DNA of 34,983 nucleotides from an uncultured Bacilli bacterium (lineage in GTDB: Bacteria > Bacillota_I > Bacilli_A > RF39 > UBA660): NCBI GenBank assembly GCA_947629405.1, contig CANRDL010000011.1, forward strand, positions 1 to 34,983, written 5' to 3'. The position numbers and the translations under genes were made by a program. Positions 10,990 through 34,983 of the stretch are shown one piece after another. Each line of letters opens with the position of its first letter. The stretch's first letter is position 1. The notes under the pieces were generated by a model that was given only the letters and a program-made list of their open reading frames with translations, was not told the DNA's origin and did not search any database.

Positions 10990-11063
10990 AAATTCCCCTC
11001 CAAACCGAAAGTTACTATAACATATAAATTTAGGAATTACAATAAATAATTTTAGGTATATTA

Positions 11064-11085
11064 AAAACTTGGAAATCCAAGTTTA
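11064..11085 (-). terminator. Terminator after tRNA-Arg
   Basis: AAACTTGG / CCAAGTTT with a 4-nt loop, followed leftward by TTTTTAATA, about ten bases past the tRNA 3' end. Confidence 0.7.
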
Positions 11086-11094
11086 TTTTAAATC

Positions 11095-11171
11095 TGGCGT
11101 CCTTGGGCAGATTCGAACTGCCGACTTTTCGCTTAGGAGGCGAATACTCTATCCTACTGAGTTACAAGGAC
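11095..11171 (-). tRNA. tRNA-Arg (anticodon CCT)
   Basis: A 77-nt cloverleaf with encoded CCA. Acceptor GTCCTTG / CAAGGAC, discriminator G, anticodon stem TTCGC / GCGAA with loop CTCCTAA (anticodon CCT), and TPsiC arm GGCAG-TTCGAAT-CTGCC. It reads the AGG codon. Confidence 0.95.
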
Positions 11172-11179
11172 ATGTAATT

Positions 11180-11208
11180 ATTATACAACAAAAAAAGAGT
11201 TTATTAAA
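11180..11208 (-). promoter_or_regulatory. tRNA-Arg promoter inside the upstream terminator
   Basis: Minus strand: TTTAAT (complement of 11203-11208), 17-bp spacer, TATAAT (complement of 11180-11185). The -35 lies in the terminator hairpin of the HD-domain gene and the spacer contains its U tract. Confidence 0.6.
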
Positions 11209-11212
11209 CTCT
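11190..11212 (-). terminator. Terminator of the HD-domain gene
   Basis: AGAGTTT / AAACTCT with a 3-nt loop, then T7 read leftward. It includes the TAG stop and overlaps the tRNA-Arg promoter. Confidence 0.75.
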
Positions 11213-11711
11213 ATCTTGAAACTATTATTACATTAAATAAAAATAATATAAATATAGATATTGGTAAAACAAATTTAGTACTATAACCTTCTTTAATAGA
11301 AACTATTTTGTCCGCTAAAGTTACTACCCAACTTTCTTTATACTTAGGAGCTTTTAAGTTCCAAGGAAACATATGCGATAAAATAGCATCTTTTTCCATA
11401 TCAGAAAGATTATAATATTTAGAACTATTTTTAACAGCTAAAGAAGGATGAGTTTTATATCTTTTTATAGCATTTAAATCTTCCATTTCTTTATTTGTAA
11501 AAAAATCATGCAAAAGAGCCGCTCTCGTTGCGCCAATATAATCTAACTTTTTAAAGTTTTTACAAAAATTATAAGTTTTTTTAGCAACTTTAACTGAGTG
11601 ATCATATCTAGATATTCCATGATGTACCTCTTTATTTAATTTTTTAAATTCTTTATTATCTAAAATATCATTGACAACACTGTTGAAATCAATTTTTGTA
11701 TTTTTAGACAT
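11211..11711 (-). CDS. HD-domain phosphohydrolase with C-terminal TM helix
   Basis: A 166-aa metal-dependent phosphohydrolase. ATG at 11711 follows GAGGTGAA; the in-frame GTG at 11720 is part of that RBS. HD-type metal ligands appear in the right order: H38 (RYDHS), H68-D69 (LLHDF), H88 (HPS), H113 (LSHMFP) and D134 (LADK). This arrangement suits the YedJ/YqeK-like branch of HD hydrolases acting on small phosphorylated molecules or nucleotides. Residues ~147-164 form one hydrophobic helix, so the enzyme is probably tail-anchored at the cytoplasmic face of the membrane, which is unusual for such a small HD protein. It is monocistronic. The substrate is unknown. Confidence 0.82.
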   Translation of the reverse strand: MSKNTKIDFNSVVNDILDNKEFKKLNKEVHHGISRYDHSVKVAKKTYNFCKNFKKLDYIGATRAALLHDFFTNKEMEDLNAIKRYKTHPSLAVKNSSKYYNLSDMEKDAILSHMFPWNLKAPKYKESWVVTLADKIVSIKEGYSTKFVLPISIFILFLFNVIIVSR

Positions 11712-11798
11712 TTTATTCACCTCGAACTATTACATTATATCATATTAATTTAAAATTATACTATTTTACATAATATTTAATTATTTATTTACAATAAT

Positions 11799-12467
11799 TT
11801 ACACATTGCGTCTTTTAATATTAATTCTTGTTTTTGCTTTCAAATGTGGGAAAGCACTAACAAGTCTTTTTAATAATTTAGATTTCTCAGATAATTTATT
11901 TCGTACATATTTAGAAATTTCCACAGTCCTATCAGAATTTTTATCATCATTTTTAGTTAATTTTCGGAATTTAAATATAGTAACTGAAGAAATATATAAA
12001 TCTGTTAAGAAAATTATTGTTAATAACCCTGTTATTATTGTCAATAGTAAGTTAGGAATCTTATTTATAAAAGTAATAACAATGGGATTAATTAAATAAA
12101 CAAATATTATTCCTGCTACAGCAAATAAGATTAATGTTTCTAAACATACTCTTCCATTAATATTAAATTTTCTTTTGCTGTAGTCCCACCATCTAGCATG
12201 AAATATTTTTTCAAATATATATGATGTAAAATATTCCAAAAAAGCACAGATGAGCATAATTTTTAATGCAACCGAAATAATATCTTCTGTCTTATCAAAA
12301 ATCTGCATTATAACTAAGCAAGCTATTCCGTAAATCGGACAAATTGGTCCAATTAAAAATCCTCTATTTATCCAATTATTGGTCTCTATTTCCGTATAAA
12401 ATACTTCAATTAGCCACCCGATAAAACTATATATAAAAAAGGCAAATATAATTACTTTAATATCCAT
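11799..12467 (-). CDS. Putative ABC-transporter permease (CmpB / PF06541 type)
   Basis: A 222-aa membrane protein with the strongly conserved signature of the 'putative ABC transporter permease' (CmpB) family: FIGWLIEVFY (15-24), NRGFLIGPICPIYG (34-47), EYFTSYIFEKIFHARWWDYS (78-97) and FNINGRVCLE (101-110). About five membrane helices occupy residues ~1-160; the last ~55 residues are basic and cytoplasmic. No ATPase gene accompanies it, and the family's transport role has never been firm. It starts at ATG 12467, 16 bases after the lipid-kinase stop, with a weak AGTGG RBS, so it is translated from the lipid-kinase mRNA. Confidence 0.85.
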   Translation of the reverse strand: MDIKVIIFAFFIYSFIGWLIEVFYTEIETNNWINRGFLIGPICPIYGIACLVIMQIFDKTEDIISVALKIMLICAFLEYFTSYIFEKIFHARWWDYSKRKFNINGRVCLETLILFAVAGIIFVYLINPIVITFINKIPNLLLTIITGLLTIIFLTDLYISSVTIFKFRKLTKNDDKNSDRTVEISKYVRNKLSEKSKLLKRLVSAFPHLKAKTRINIKRRNV

Positions 12468-30701: not shown

Positions 30702-32114
30702 TTATTTTTTCATAATCTTAGATTTTGATGAATTTGGAATATAAACTAATTTATTTAATTGTTCTTCATTTATATAAATCACTTTACCACCAGGAGGATT
30801 AATTTTTTTATTTCCAAAAACTATCCAAATTGCATTTATTACTTTAGTAGGCATATCAGCATGTCCATCCGTAAAAATAATTTTGTTTTCTACTCTATTA
30901 GAAAAAGCATTAATTGCTACATTAAAATCAGTACCGCCTCGACCAACAAATTTCATTTTTTCAATATCGTTTTTATTTCGAATATCATTAAAACCATAAA
31001 ATTCAGTATCAAAACATCCTACTTTAACTTTAGAACTTTTTAAAATATTTAGACATTCCATTAAAAAATTTCTTAATAAAATATCATTTATAGAGCTACT
31101 TGTATCAAGTAAAATTTCTATTTCTGGCTCTGGAACATCTTCAATATAAGGACTAATTATTCCATCTTCTAAAGTAGGATTTTTAAATGACCAATCAATA
31201 TCTATATTCACAGCATCTTTTAATAATTTTGTCCAATCAACTAGGGGTTTTAATTTATCTATATTATTTATATAAAAAGGAGTGCTATTAGTTTTACTAC
31301 CTGCTTTTGAAAATTGTTCTTTTAATGTTTTTTTTAATTCTTCCAAACGTTTTTTCCTTTTTTCTCGCATTTTATCAAAAACATCTTTTTCCTTCATTTT
31401 TCCAAATTTTTCTATTTCTTTATTTATTTTTTCTTCTGTTTCACTAATATCATTTCCCATTTGTTTTAGTGCATCTTTCCAAATTTTATGGGCGTTATTA
31501 GCATGTTTATTGGAAAATTTATTTTCTGATTTTTTCTTGCCATTTTGAGCATTGGAATTTTGGGATTGCTTATTTTTTTGCTCATTAGAATTATTACCTG
31601 AATTTTTAGAATCATGATTTGAATTATTAGATTTATGAAATTGTGAAGAACTTTGATTACTTGATTTACTATTAGAATTAGAATTACCGCTAAATTTTTG
31701 ATGATTTTGTTCTGCTCTTTTCTCTTTCATGAGTTTATCATAAATTTCTTCAGCACTATAGTTGCTTGCATCTGGCATGTCGACATCATCTGGACTAAGT
31801 GGTAATCCATCTTTTTTTAGTTGAGCATTAATAACTGCATCGGCTGCTATATTAAATAATTCATAATTTTTTCCTTTACTTCTTTTTATATGATTTAATG
31901 CGATATGACTTATTTCATGTGCAAAACAAAAAGTTTGTTCATCTTCACTTAAATTGGATAAAAATTCTGGATTATAATAAATTCTTTTTCCATCATTGCA
32001 TAACGGAGCATTTCCTACTTGATGAGGAATAAATTTTATATTGGCTATAATATTACCAAAATCCTCATATTTTACTAATATTCTATTTATTATTTCTTTT
32101 TCAAAATTATTCAT
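30702..32114 (-). CDS. DUF2201-type metallopeptidase with VWA domain
   Basis: A 470-aa protein. ATG at 32114 is chosen because AGGTGATG sits right before it; ATG 32120 overlaps that RBS. Residues ~1-130 are a putative zinc-peptidase domain with FAHEISHIALNH (HExxH at 66-70) and a downstream NIAADAVIN that fits a third ligand region. Residues ~141-205 are a low-complexity Ser/Asn/Lys linker. Residues 210-275 are charged helices. Residues ~330-448 are a VWA-like domain with MIDAS residues DTSSS (337-341), GGTD (393-396) and FTDG (414-417). This two-domain plan (DUF2201) normally accompanies a MoxR-type ATPase. Last gene of a three-gene overlapping operon; the AAA protein probably acts on or activates it. 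Confidence 0.88.
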   Translation of the reverse strand: MNNFEKEIINRILVKYEDFGNIIANIKFIPHQVGNAPLCNDGKRIYYNPEFLSNLSEDEQTFCFAHEISHIALNHIKRSKGKNYELFNIAADAVINAQLKKDGLPLSPDDVDMPDASNYSAEEIYDKLMKEKRAEQNHQKFSGNSNSNSKSSNQSSSQFHKSNNSNHDSKNSGNNSNEQKNKQSQNSNAQNGKKKSENKFSNKHANNAHKIWKDALKQMGNDISETEEKINKEIEKFGKMKEKDVFDKMREKRKKRLEELKKTLKEQFSKAGSKTNSTPFYINNIDKLKPLVDWTKLLKDAVNIDIDWSFKNPTLEDGIISPYIEDVPEPEIEILLDTSSSINDILLRNFLMECLNILKSSKVKVGCFDTEFYGFNDIRNKNDIEKMKFVGRGGTDFNVAINAFSNRVENKIIFTDGHADMPTKVINAIWIVFGNKKINPPGGKVIYINEEQLNKLVYIPNSSKSKIMKK

Positions 32115-32119
32115 ATACA

Positions 32120-32530
32120 TCACCTAATATGTGCTACTAAAGAATAAATTTCTTCATTTATTAAATTTTTGTCAATTTTCTTACATGTAATAATAACTTG
32201 ACAATTATTAGGCAAGTCTAAAGTTCCAATTTTATGATATTTTATTATATCCATAAATTTAATTTGTTCTTTAACTGAAATATCAGTTATATTTTCAATA
32301 ATTAAATAGTTACTAATATCATTTTCTCTTCTTTTTACATTTAAATACCAACTTGGCGGCATAAAAGTATGATTATTAAAATGGCCATTTAAATTATTAA
32401 GATCAATATCTGCTTTAATAATTGTACCAACATCTTTTATAATACTTTCGGATAAACCTTCAACTAAAATGGGAATTTCTTTAACTTTTAAATATTCACT
32501 GATTAAAGATAATTTATCTTTGTTTAACAC
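32120..32530 (-). CDS. Degenerate AAA-like protein of the VWA operon
   Basis: A 136-aa protein that lines up along its whole length with the AAA core of its upstream neighbour. IPILVEGLSES (19-29) stands in place of AVFIHGKSGDGKS. MPPSWYLNV (57-65) matches APPWYQRL. NYLIIENITD (74-83) replaces Walker B HILFLDELTN. DLPNNCQVIITCKKI (105-119) matches ELPKNCRVVAAGNEI, and LVAHIR matches FNRFAHVYI. The P-loop Gly-Lys and the Walker B Asp are lost, so it should not hydrolyse ATP. It probably acts as a structural or regulatory subunit. GTG at 32530 overlaps the AAA stop by 7 bases; its TGA overlaps the next gene. Confidence 0.75.
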   Translation of the reverse strand: MLNKDKLSLISEYLKVKEIPILVEGLSESIIKDVGTIIKADIDLNNLNGHFNNHTFMPPSWYLNVKRRENDISNYLIIENITDISVKEQIKFMDIIKYHKIGTLDLPNNCQVIITCKKIDKNLINEEIYSLVAHIR

Positions 32531-34428
32531 TTTCTTGTTCCTTTCTTTGATTTTATCATTCTAAGTTCCGCTATTTTTTCTAATCTTTTTTCATCATCAT
32601 GACAATATAAAGTATCAAATAAAGCAAGAAATTCCGGGTCTAAATTGGCAACAAAGTCTCTAATTATTTTAACATTTTTTTCATCAACGAAAGATAACCC
32701 AACAACTGTAGCATATTTTTCACTAATATCCATTTCTAAATTAGATTTATCATAATTATTATTTATAACATCTTCTATAGTTATAATCTTTTTACAACAA
32801 AAATCTACAAAATCGCTAGTTAATGCTTCTCCAACTAACGCTCTTAACATTTCTGGATTTTTAGTTTTATATAAAATTTTAGAAGCCATTTCCCATTTTC
32901 TAGGATCAGCATTTGGTGTTTCCCCATTATATTCGCTGCGTAAAGCTTTGTCTCTTTTATAAGAAATAAAAGCTAAAATTGCAGGATGAATTTTAGGCAA
33001 ATTTTCGTCTTCTTCATAAGTTAATCTTTTATAATCTTTTGCTGGAGTTACAGCCCAATTAAGCCATGATTCAACTGTTGTATCTATATAAACATGTGCA
33101 AAACGATTAAATAAAGGTTCCGCTATTTCAAAGGCTGCTTTACTATCGTTTATTTCATTTCCAGCAGCAACAACCCTACAATTTTTAGGTAGTTCAAAAA
33201 AATCGTTAACTTTACGATCTAATGCTATACTATATCCATATTTTTGCATATTTAATGAAGCATTTGTAAGTTCATCTAAAAATAATATATGTATTTTATT
33301 AGGCTCTTTTTCACATTTATCCACTAATCTTTGATACCAAGGTGGAGCGATATATTCAACTTTTTTTTCATCATTATTTTTTATAGCCATTCCAATTAAT
33401 AATTCAGGAGTTAAAGTTCCTATTGAAACAATTTCACAATCAGGATCTATTTGTCTTACTCTTGCACTTTTTCCATCACCTGATTTACCATGTATAAAAA
33501 CAGCAACGCCACTTTCTACTACTCCTTTAATAATATCTTCTTCACTAACTTTTTCAAAAGTAAAATTATAAGGATTTGGTATTTCTTTTTCTTTACCTAT
33601 TTCTTTAATTATTTTTTCTTCCGTTGATTTTTTATAGGTATTAATTGAACTTAAATCAATAATAAGATATTTATCCATGTAATTATATACATTAGTTAAC
33701 AATGACGAATTATCATAATTTAATTCATTTAAATAATTTCCCGTACATATTATTTTTTTGCAAATGGCCAGAATATCTTTCTCACTATGTAACCATTTTA
33801 ATGGCTCATATTTAATCCAAACATAATCTCCGTCTTTATACTTATTTCCATCAGAAAGTTTAAAATAGTCACCTTCAAAACAAGAATTAACTTCAACTCT
33901 AACGAAGCTTTCCCCGTTATATTCATATCTAATTAATCTTTTTGGTTTAAAAACTTCTTTACAATGTGAATAAGCATTATATTTTCGAGGATCAATAATT
34001 GGTCCTGGTAAATTTGAAACATTTAATTTATTATATTCAAATAATCTTTTTAATTCTTTTTGATTTATAGCTATACTTTGAGGGTATGCTCCATATTCTA
34101 TTTCGCCATTTAATTCTATGCCTGAAGAATTTTTCGATATTTCTGAGAATGGCAAAACCGGACGACATCCAATATTTTGTTTCAAAAATCGTGGTTCAGA
34201 CATAACGCCATCTTCATCAATAACACGGGCATCATTATATTCATCTTCAGTTTTAACCCAATAATATCCAGTTCTATTTTTTAAAATATTTCCTTCATTT
34301 GTATATTTATCTGATACATACCCACCTGTACAAATTGCAAAATCTGATATTGCTGCCATAGTTCCATATTTTTTAAATATATCTAAATTATCAACTTGAT
34401 TCTTTTTTAACACAGTTAGTTTACTCAT
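32524..34428 (-). CDS. MoxR-like AAA+ ATPase with DUF6273-like N-terminus
   Basis: A 634-aa protein. ATG at 34428 follows GAGGTGAT; the GTG at 34437 is inside that RBS. Residues ~1-260 are a beta-rich region: EYGAYPQS (111-118), YEYNGESFVRVEV, and KYKDGDYVWIKYEPLKWL (196-213), resembling DUF6273-type modules. Residues ~290-455 are a MoxR/CbbQ-type AAA core: Walker A GKSGDGKS (314-321), Walker B ILFLDEL (381-387), sensor-1 AAGNEI with N424 and an Arg finger at FNRF (R442). The rest is a helical lid. It heads an overlapping operon with a degenerate AAA copy and a metallopeptidase-VWA protein, the typical MoxR-VWA chaperone pairing. Client unknown. Confidence 0.88.
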   Translation of the reverse strand: MSKLTVLKKNQVDNLDIFKKYGTMAAISDFAICTGGYVSDKYTNEGNILKNRTGYYWVKTEDEYNDARVIDEDGVMSEPRFLKQNIGCRPVLPFSEISKNSSGIELNGEIEYGAYPQSIAINQKELKRLFEYNKLNVSNLPGPIIDPRKYNAYSHCKEVFKPKRLIRYEYNGESFVRVEVNSCFEGDYFKLSDGNKYKDGDYVWIKYEPLKWLHSEKDILAICKKIICTGNYLNELNYDNSSLLTNVYNYMDKYLIIDLSSINTYKKSTEEKIIKEIGKEKEIPNPYNFTFEKVSEEDIIKGVVESGVAVFIHGKSGDGKSARVRQIDPDCEIVSIGTLTPELLIGMAIKNNDEKKVEYIAPPWYQRLVDKCEKEPNKIHILFLDELTNASLNMQKYGYSIALDRKVNDFFELPKNCRVVAAGNEINDSKAAFEIAEPLFNRFAHVYIDTTVESWLNWAVTPAKDYKRLTYEEDENLPKIHPAILAFISYKRDKALRSEYNGETPNADPRKWEMASKILYKTKNPEMLRALVGEALTSDFVDFCCKKIITIEDVINNNYDKSNLEMDISEKYATVVGLSFVDEKNVKIIRDFVANLDPEFLALFDTLYCHDDEKRLEKIAELRMIKSKKGTRKC

Positions 34429-34530
34429 AATTATCACCTCAATAATTATAAAATTTAAAAATACTAATAAAAAATATATCTATTTTTTAATTCATTTGAT
34501 GGCTTTTAAAACAAACTTTATCACATGTAA

Positions 34531-34539
34531 AGTATATCA
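34531..34539 (-). promoter_or_regulatory. Possible extended -10 of the AAA/VWA operon
   Basis: Minus strand TG-A-TATACT (complement of 34531-34539), about 100 bases before the AAA start; -35 region is only A/T-rich. The 153-bp gap shows no other clear signal. Confidence 0.35.
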
Positions 34540-34581
34540 TACAATATTTTTTTTTACTAGTTATACACAGAAAACAATTAT

Positions 34582-34983
34582 TTATTTTTTAGCTAATTTT
34601 TTTACTATTTCTTCTTTTTCTAGTAAGTATTCTTTATTTACTTTAAATTTTACCGGATACATTTTTGGTTTACTTTTTTCTTTATTTTCTTCTCTTATTT
34701 TTTTGATTTCTTTTAACATCTCTAGTTTTTCTTTCCCTATACTTTTTATTACCTTACTTTTTATAAACCATAAATATAATATATATGATGTGTCTTCTCT
34801 TAATTCGGCTTCTATTATTTCACTTTCAGTTTTTAAACTTTCTTTTAATATATATTTAAATCCTTCTCTTATCTCTTTTATTTGATCATCTTTCTCGTTT
34901 TTTCTCGCTTCTTCTTTTGCTAAGTCACAAATATTTATCTTCTTTCCATCATTTGTATATATATAATAAAAATCTTCTCCTAT
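34582..34983 (-). CDS. Partial unknown protein, truncated by the window edge
   Basis: An open frame without a start enters at the right edge (134 codons including the stop) and ends at TAA 34582-34584. The visible 133 residues begin IGEDFYYIYTNDGKKINICD and are highly charged, with long Lys/Glu-rich helices (EEARKNEKDDQIKEIREG, LEMLKEIKKIREENKEKSK) and a central SYILYLWFIKSKV. The C-terminus is basic (KKLAKK). No family recognised. An open frame of this length in such AT-rich DNA, with good Lys/Glu codon structure, and co-directional with the AAA operon, supports a real gene. Confidence 0.65.
   Translation of the reverse strand: MGEDFYYIYTNDGKKINICDLAKEEARKNEKDDQIKEIREGFKYILKESLKTESEIIEAELREDTSYILYLWFIKSKVIKSIGKEKLEMLKEIKKIREENKEKSKPKMYPVKFKVNKEYLLEKEEIVKKLAKK

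Follow-up and report, generated by a model that had tools for sequence, protein, structure and literature searches.

We analyzed a stretch of 34,983 nucleotides (the window) from an uncultured Bacilli bacterium of the RF39 lineage (GenBank assembly GCA_947629405.1, contig CANRDL010000011.1). Three co-oriented, overlapping genes within it, here called A, B, and C, encode a MoxR-type AAA+ ATPase, a small pseudo-AAA protein, and a protein that combines a metallopeptidase-like domain with a VWA domain (Table 1). A triplet of overlapping genes had been described in an earlier reading made without database searches (the sequence-only reading), and the overlaps amount to 7 bp between A and B and 4 bp between B and C. 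An in-frame GTG at position 34437 is a possible alternative start for gene A. The sequence-only reading held in part; it missed that the recognition module of A is the target of a diversity-generating retroelement (DGR) in relatives, and that this retroelement has decayed in the genus to which the window belongs.

Table 1. Features of the A-B-C locus, in window coordinates (VR, variable region; TR, template repeat; RT, reverse transcriptase; ORF, open reading frame).
Feature	Coordinates	Strand	Basis
Locus of three co-oriented overlapping genes (A, B, C)	30702..34428	-	
Gene A, MoxR AAA+ ATPase, 634 amino acids	32524..34428	-	ORF, ATG at 34428
First sensor part of A (residues ~1–97), homologous to the C-terminal half of DUF6273	34138..34428	-	hhalign
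DGR VR relic (A residues 65–93)	34150..34236	-	aligns with TR/VR-proven VRs of L049, L054, L055, L056, L059, and L063
Second sensor part of A (residues ~108–258), homologous to the N-terminal half of DUF6273	33655..34107	-	hhalign
AAA+ module of A (residues ~294–546)	32791..33549	-	structure match, motifs
Walker A of A, GKSGDGKS (residues 314–321)	33466..33489	-	sequence
Gene B, pseudo-AAA, large subdomain only, 136 amino acids	32120..32530	-	profiles, AlphaFold model, motif losses
Gene C, DUF2201 metallopeptidase-like and VWA domains with low-complexity linker, 473 amino acids	30702..32123	-	PF13203, PF09967
Zinc motif of C, HEISH (residues 69–73)	31905..31919	-	sequence
MIDAS motif of the C VWA domain, DTSSS (residues 340–344)	31092..31106	-	sequence
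Site of Avd, TR, and RT in relatives	34438..34983	.	no trace of the three in the window

When A proteins are aligned, near-identical ones diverge at one short stretch of the N-terminal domain. Between loci L054 and L055, 7 of 28 residues differ in this VR, as compared with 2 of 279 elsewhere in the N-terminal domain and 2 of 335 in the motor. Six such pairs in all show divergence confined to the VR (p 2e-5 to 8e-8). The pattern is less clean between the two A copies of L051, and the two A genes of L053 differ less in the VR than elsewhere, without divergence of the DGR type. Directly upstream of A lie ORFs of ~340–370 amino acids with LPLGNQSSQ-type and YMDD motifs, and the two that were tested are RTs (PF00078; E 9e-19 for L054 and 8e-17 for L063). 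An Avd-like protein is encoded upstream of RT (PF22296, bAvd; E 8e-6 in L049 and 0.01 in L054, both below the curated 40 bits), and a TR is located between Avd and RT. TR/VR pairs, with repeats of 77–100 bp, occur at six loci (L049, L054, L055, L056, L059, and L063), at which TR and VR differ at 65 sites, one constant A/C site in an RPD/RPA codon being set aside. Template adenines account for 57 of these differences and for 153 of the 528 template bases. Such adenine specificity is the defining signature of DGRs, and it thus indicates that a DGR composed of Avd, TR, and RT, directly upstream of A, hypermutates A in the six relatives. The six loci do not represent six independent origins, as L054, L055, and L056 are closely related and have one TR in common. 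In G268, an A gene (L111:6496-8460, G268:C23) beside an RT that is 67% identical to that of L063 carries an in-frame TAA inside the VR, which may be the outcome expected of random adenine mutagenesis.

The repeats have a constant TR/VR difference at their 3' end, and an element of sequence CGAACnnAGTGAGRGG is located 30–31 bp past the VR, within the reading frame, in all six DGR loci. The element also occurs in four loci with decayed or partial DGRs (L047, L048, L057, and L060), and is absent from the compared A genes without an adjacent DGR, including that of the window. It is able to form a conserved hairpin with a non-GRNA loop. The canonical GRNA-loop cruciform (PMC3240598) was sought after the VR, and this weaker conserved hairpin with another loop was found instead. 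Because the hairpin is unlike the GRNA-loop cruciform of BPP-1, we regard the post-VR element as a candidate cis element only. A second conserved feature, the inverted repeat ATATATTTTATGTAAAATATAT, lies ~43 bp past each TR (L054:3967-3988, and likewise in L049, L055, L056, L059, and L063); it may belong to the TR RNA or act as a terminator. Separately, DUF6273 fragments were observed within a few kb of DGR-related RT genes (G010:C96, G019:C23, G004:C2, G026:C65, and G020:C8), which suggests that this bacterial family contains several further DGRs.

No trace of RT or Avd was detected in the window by tblastn. The homologous RT and TR are absent from the window, and no homologous RT was found elsewhere in the 88.7%-complete assembly. 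Upstream of A, an unrelated ORF of 133 amino acids (34582–34983) runs to the contig end. In the sister species G001 (L047), Avd and RT are present directly upstream of A as pseudogenes (tblastn). As judged from these comparisons, A of the window is a former DGR target and its VR a frozen relic. An RT encoded on contig C14 of the window genome (L045:1147-2730) was evaluated as a possible DGR enzyme and dismissed, as it is a UG31-type defence RT (PADLOC PDLC03770, E 9e-90) and unrelated to the DGR.

The frames of A, B, and C are intact in both species. The motor of A, along with B and C, is under purifying selection, with ratios of nonsynonymous to synonymous substitution (NG86 dN/dS) of 0.18–0.41 in which dS is rough at this base composition, and the N-terminal domain of A diverges faster than the motor between the two. 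The loss of the DGR together with this selection implies that the machine of the window has been left with its final sensor variant frozen in place. The operon might instead be a relic, no longer working after DGR loss and on its way out. The DGR pseudogenes in G001, the loss in the window genome (G000), the destruction of the post-VR element in the window, and the faster divergence of the N-terminal domain would all fit such decay, but three intact frames in both species, the dN/dS values, and the intact catalytic motifs of the window make it improbable.

The VR is located near the N-terminus of A, and ~540 codons follow it. The sequence-only reading had proposed the N-terminal region as DUF6273-like and a likely recognition module; hhalign and a sub-threshold Pfam match support the DUF6273 relationship, and a recognition role is plausible. 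By hhalign, the first part of this sensor domain matches positions 221–280 (of 285) of a DUF6273 protein (E 1e-5), and the second part matches positions 11–143 (of 285) (E 1.7e-8). As the halves occur in swapped order, the N-terminal domain of A appears to be a circularly permuted, putatively C-lectin-like DUF6273 domain; tandem half-domains, the usual intermediate of permutation, would look identical by sequence. In relatives, A matches positions 90–168 (of 172) of PF19789 below threshold (best score 20.6 bits versus a cut-off of 23.5), and Pfam gave no PF19789 match in A of the window. In structure searches (Foldseek, VIA) with the whole A model, AAA+ matches filled the list, and the lack of a C-lectin match there is meaningless.

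In phage tentaclins, DUF6273 has been described as a C-lectin-like target of DGRs (PMC10743442), and the variable domain of A is related to those of tentaclins and other DUF6273 DGR targets. However, tentaclins are phage receptor-binding proteins with immunoglobulin domains, whereas the domain in A is circularly permuted. The window genome also encodes, on contigs C15 and C4, three stand-alone relatives of the permuted domain, two as a tandem pair (L042:10085-10963 and 11038-11934) and one at L043:8921-9826, all without an adjacent RT. Similar proteins were observed in G001, G026, G028, and G035; these are possibly remnants of other DGR targets.

All the catalytic motifs of an active AAA+ protein are present in the motor of A: Walker A (GKSGDGKS), Walker B (FLDE), the sensor-1 Asn, the Arg finger (LFNRF), and the sensor-2 Arg. 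They are invariant across 18 aligned A homologues. Structurally, the motor matches RavA (Z 13.8; 3.5 Å, 219 residues; model residues 294–546), NorQ, and CbbQ (Z 12.3 for each of the latter two). Dynein and MCM score within ~1–2 Z of these, and the fold alone is not diagnostic of MoxR. No AAA_3 (MoxR) match was found for A by hmmscan against Pfam, nor is A among the AAA_3 matches of the genome, and by this measure A is a divergent MoxR member. A VWA partner with a metal ion-dependent adhesion site (MIDAS), in the form of C, is encoded alongside A. Sequence searches against solved structures returned nothing useful for A or B. Some loci (L050, L051, and L053) have a second or third A bearing a different N-terminal domain.

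A scan for B covering 84,980 species genomes yielded 16 loci. As a single pair, B and A of the window match with a BLASTP E of 4e-4 and a Smith-Waterman score reached by 2 of 2000 shuffles, which is only suggestive. Compared as profiles, the two match with an E of 5e-7, and the best non-B matches of the B profile in 395 genomes of the class are to the A protein of the same operon (E 2e-7 to 4e-7). The collinearity between the 136-amino acid protein and the AAA core, noted in the sequence-only reading, is thus beyond chance, and the retrieval of same-operon A proteins points to a probable origin of B as a duplicate of A. The AlphaFold model of B (pLDDT 88, pTM 0.83) has the predicted AAA fold, forming an AAA+ large subdomain along its full length (CbbQ, Z 11.6, 2.6 Å, 119 residues; NorQ, Z 11.4; Foldseek match to AAA+, E 4e-5). 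None of the 16 B homologues retains a P-loop or the catalytic Glu. The Walker B Asp, said in the sequence-only reading to be lost, is absent from B of the window but kept in 9 of the 16. Overlooked previously was the absence of the Arg finger and of the entire lid, before which the chain stops. These profiles, motifs, and models agree with the earlier proposal of a duplicated, catalytically dead AAA subunit, and B is best described as a pseudo-AAA protein and kin of A. A capping or regulatory action of this subunit on the active ring, also proposed in that reading, is conjectural.

Protein C scores over the Pfam cut-offs for PF13203 (DUF2201_N, E 7e-33) and PF09967 (VWA-like, E 5e-14), and Pfam hmmscan revealed no β-propeller. 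The HExxH motif and intact MIDAS previously ascribed to C are both present, the first as HEISH and the second as a complete set of three motifs (DTSSS/GGTDF/FTDG). HExxH is kept in C at 14 of the 16 loci.

These features lead us to infer that A-B-C works as a conflict or remodelling machine of the MoxR-VWA kind, in which the motor itself bears a diversifiable sensor and the ring includes a dead subunit; we assign this reading a probability of roughly 55%. The sensor would bind a foreign or variable ligand, biasing the A ring and triggering a pull on C. The ring would grip the VWA domain of C as NorQ grips NorD and pull or twist it, thereby switching the zincin-like domain of C. In NorQD structures, the VWA domain docks at the seam of the MoxR ring (PMC13036017); the VWA domain of C may similarly dock at the ring seam, with an element in the pore. 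B, without a lid and nucleotide site, would take a fixed, noncycling place at the seam, either inside the A spiral or as its last member. Having a large subdomain and no lid, it would pair on one side only and so end or seal the spiral, marking the seam. Its position could determine the docking site of C or the timing of ring firing. The likeliest use of such a machine would be defence against phages or other mobile DNA. Put in its most specific form, which we offer tentatively and hold less likely than not, A-B-C would be an immune sensor in which retrohoming renews an antigen-binding crown on the AAA+ ring, the dead subunit fixes the seam to give a directed pull on a peptidase-VWA effector, and permutation has freed the VR from the C-terminus.

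Several observations count against the reading as a MoxR-VWA machine with a sensor and a dead subunit. The HExxH motif of C is broken in L048 (HEICY) and in L049 (HVICH), the latter having an intact DGR. Peptidase activity is therefore not required everywhere, which argues against a simple protease effector role for C. None of the three proteins is matched by a PADLOC model, and the neighboring genes that were examined do not constitute a defence island. The scheme would also have to be workable without B, as A-based searches revealed A-C pairs that lack B, those of G007 and G398 on a branch of their own and others in the remoter genomes G045, G088, and G369. The sequence-only reading had named related genomes with the ATPase-VWA pair alone as a refutation of its proposal. 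The order A-B-C is kept at 15 of the 16 species-level B loci, often with overlaps of 1–4 bp, but the pairs lacking B count in part as such a refutation; the 16 loci were collected through B, and the frequency of its absence is not derivable from them. At the sixteenth locus, in G020, B is ~12 kb from the A-C pair. The existence of pairs without B, and this separation, indicate that B is a feature of one clade.

These same observations bear on a different role for B, as an independent, antitoxin-like inhibitor that silences the machine through its remnant AAA face on A or C and is displaced upon sensor engagement. B is small, has a gene that overlaps those of A and C on either side, retains AAA core surfaces without a lid or nucleotide site, and is conserved in G020 despite its distance, all of which would suit an inhibitor. 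Silencing by B cannot be obligatory where A-C pairs lack it, and nothing in the analysis separates an inhibitor from a ring subunit; we give the inhibitor a fairly low probability.

The spread of the system is patchy, with an A relative in 15 of 395 genomes of the class and the triplet or B in about 4. The flanking genes examined are ordinary metabolic or regulatory ones as often as mobile ones, and no client gene is kept beside the triplet across the loci. This pattern is relevant to the possibility that A-B-C is a client-maturation chaperone like NorQD, CbbQO, and RavA-ViaA, in which the variable domain would follow changing client or surface proteins and B would be an assembly subunit. Characterized MoxR-VWA pairs are indeed maturation chaperones (PMC13036017), and the metabolic and regulatory neighbors are in keeping with such a role. 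Hypermutation, however, has no obvious use in maturation, and the missing conserved client and the patchy spread also speak against a chaperone, which we judge unlikely.

Viral contigs scanned with single B and A proteins gave no match. Scanned with A/B profiles, they gave one contig, which has holin- and endolysin-like genes and an ABC transporter; because of the transporter, the cassette may adjoin a prophage instead of sitting in a phage. In G007 (L033, contig C26), an A-C pair without B was seen in an apparent mobile element that also encodes a serine recombinase and a relaxase-like protein (identified by eye), and recombinases occur near L050 and L059. Phages encode homologous ATPase (phrog_1297, E 3e-49 to A) and peptidase-VWA (phrog_1314, E 1e-62 to C) families, the former matched in 530 phage records, although the phage proteins are distant from A and C (22–28% identity among the matches listed).

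In the fold of A and B and in having a VWA protein with a MIDAS as ring partner, the system resembles NorQ-NorD, CbbQ-CbbO, and RavA-ViaA, which as described have no separate dead AAA subunit, DGR, or C-lectin-like sensor. The retroelement resembles that of Bordetella phage BPP-1 in its RT, Avd, adenine-specific TR/VR pair, and constant 3' difference, and departs from it in the N-terminal placement of the VR and in having its candidate cis element, with a non-GRNA loop, inside the reading frame. DGR-diversified MoxR-VWA systems are already known in multicellular bacteria, namely the MoxR-vWA ternary conflict systems with DGR-diversified FGS/CLec domains (Kaur et al. 2020, PMC7159879; Thiohalocapsa PB-PSB1 DGRs, PMC10907252), for which a defence role is likewise predicted only (PMC10907252). 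These share with A-B-C a MoxR AAA+ protein, a VWA partner, and a DGR hypermutating a sensor of C-lectin type, putatively so in the case of A. In the ternary systems, which occur mostly in multicellular bacteria, the vWA or another target protein bears the variable domain at its C-terminus; in A-B-C, from small-genome Bacilli, this domain is N-terminal on the MoxR protein and permuted. The third component of the ternary systems is a VMAP, iSTAND, FtsH, or β-propeller protein. In A-B-C, by contrast, the third gene encodes a MoxR-derived pseudo-AAA protein, which is none of these four kinds, and a zincin-like domain is present on the VWA protein.

The literature searched, with incomplete coverage, contained no report of a DGR acting on a MoxR protein, of a permuted variable domain, or of a pseudo-AAA partner. 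New in combination, relative to the papers found, are a DGR directed to the MoxR motor itself, an N-terminal VR in a permuted C-lectin-like domain, and a dedicated dead AAA subunit. According to a DGR survey, VRs are near-universally C-terminal, which was explained by cis elements needed outside the coding sequence (PMC8144416); the N-terminal VR of A contrasts with that placement. With these findings, the range of DGR-diversified MoxR-VWA machines grows beyond multicellular bacteria to include small-genome Bacilli, whose compact loci lend themselves to tests of sensing, hypermutation, and ring mechanics.

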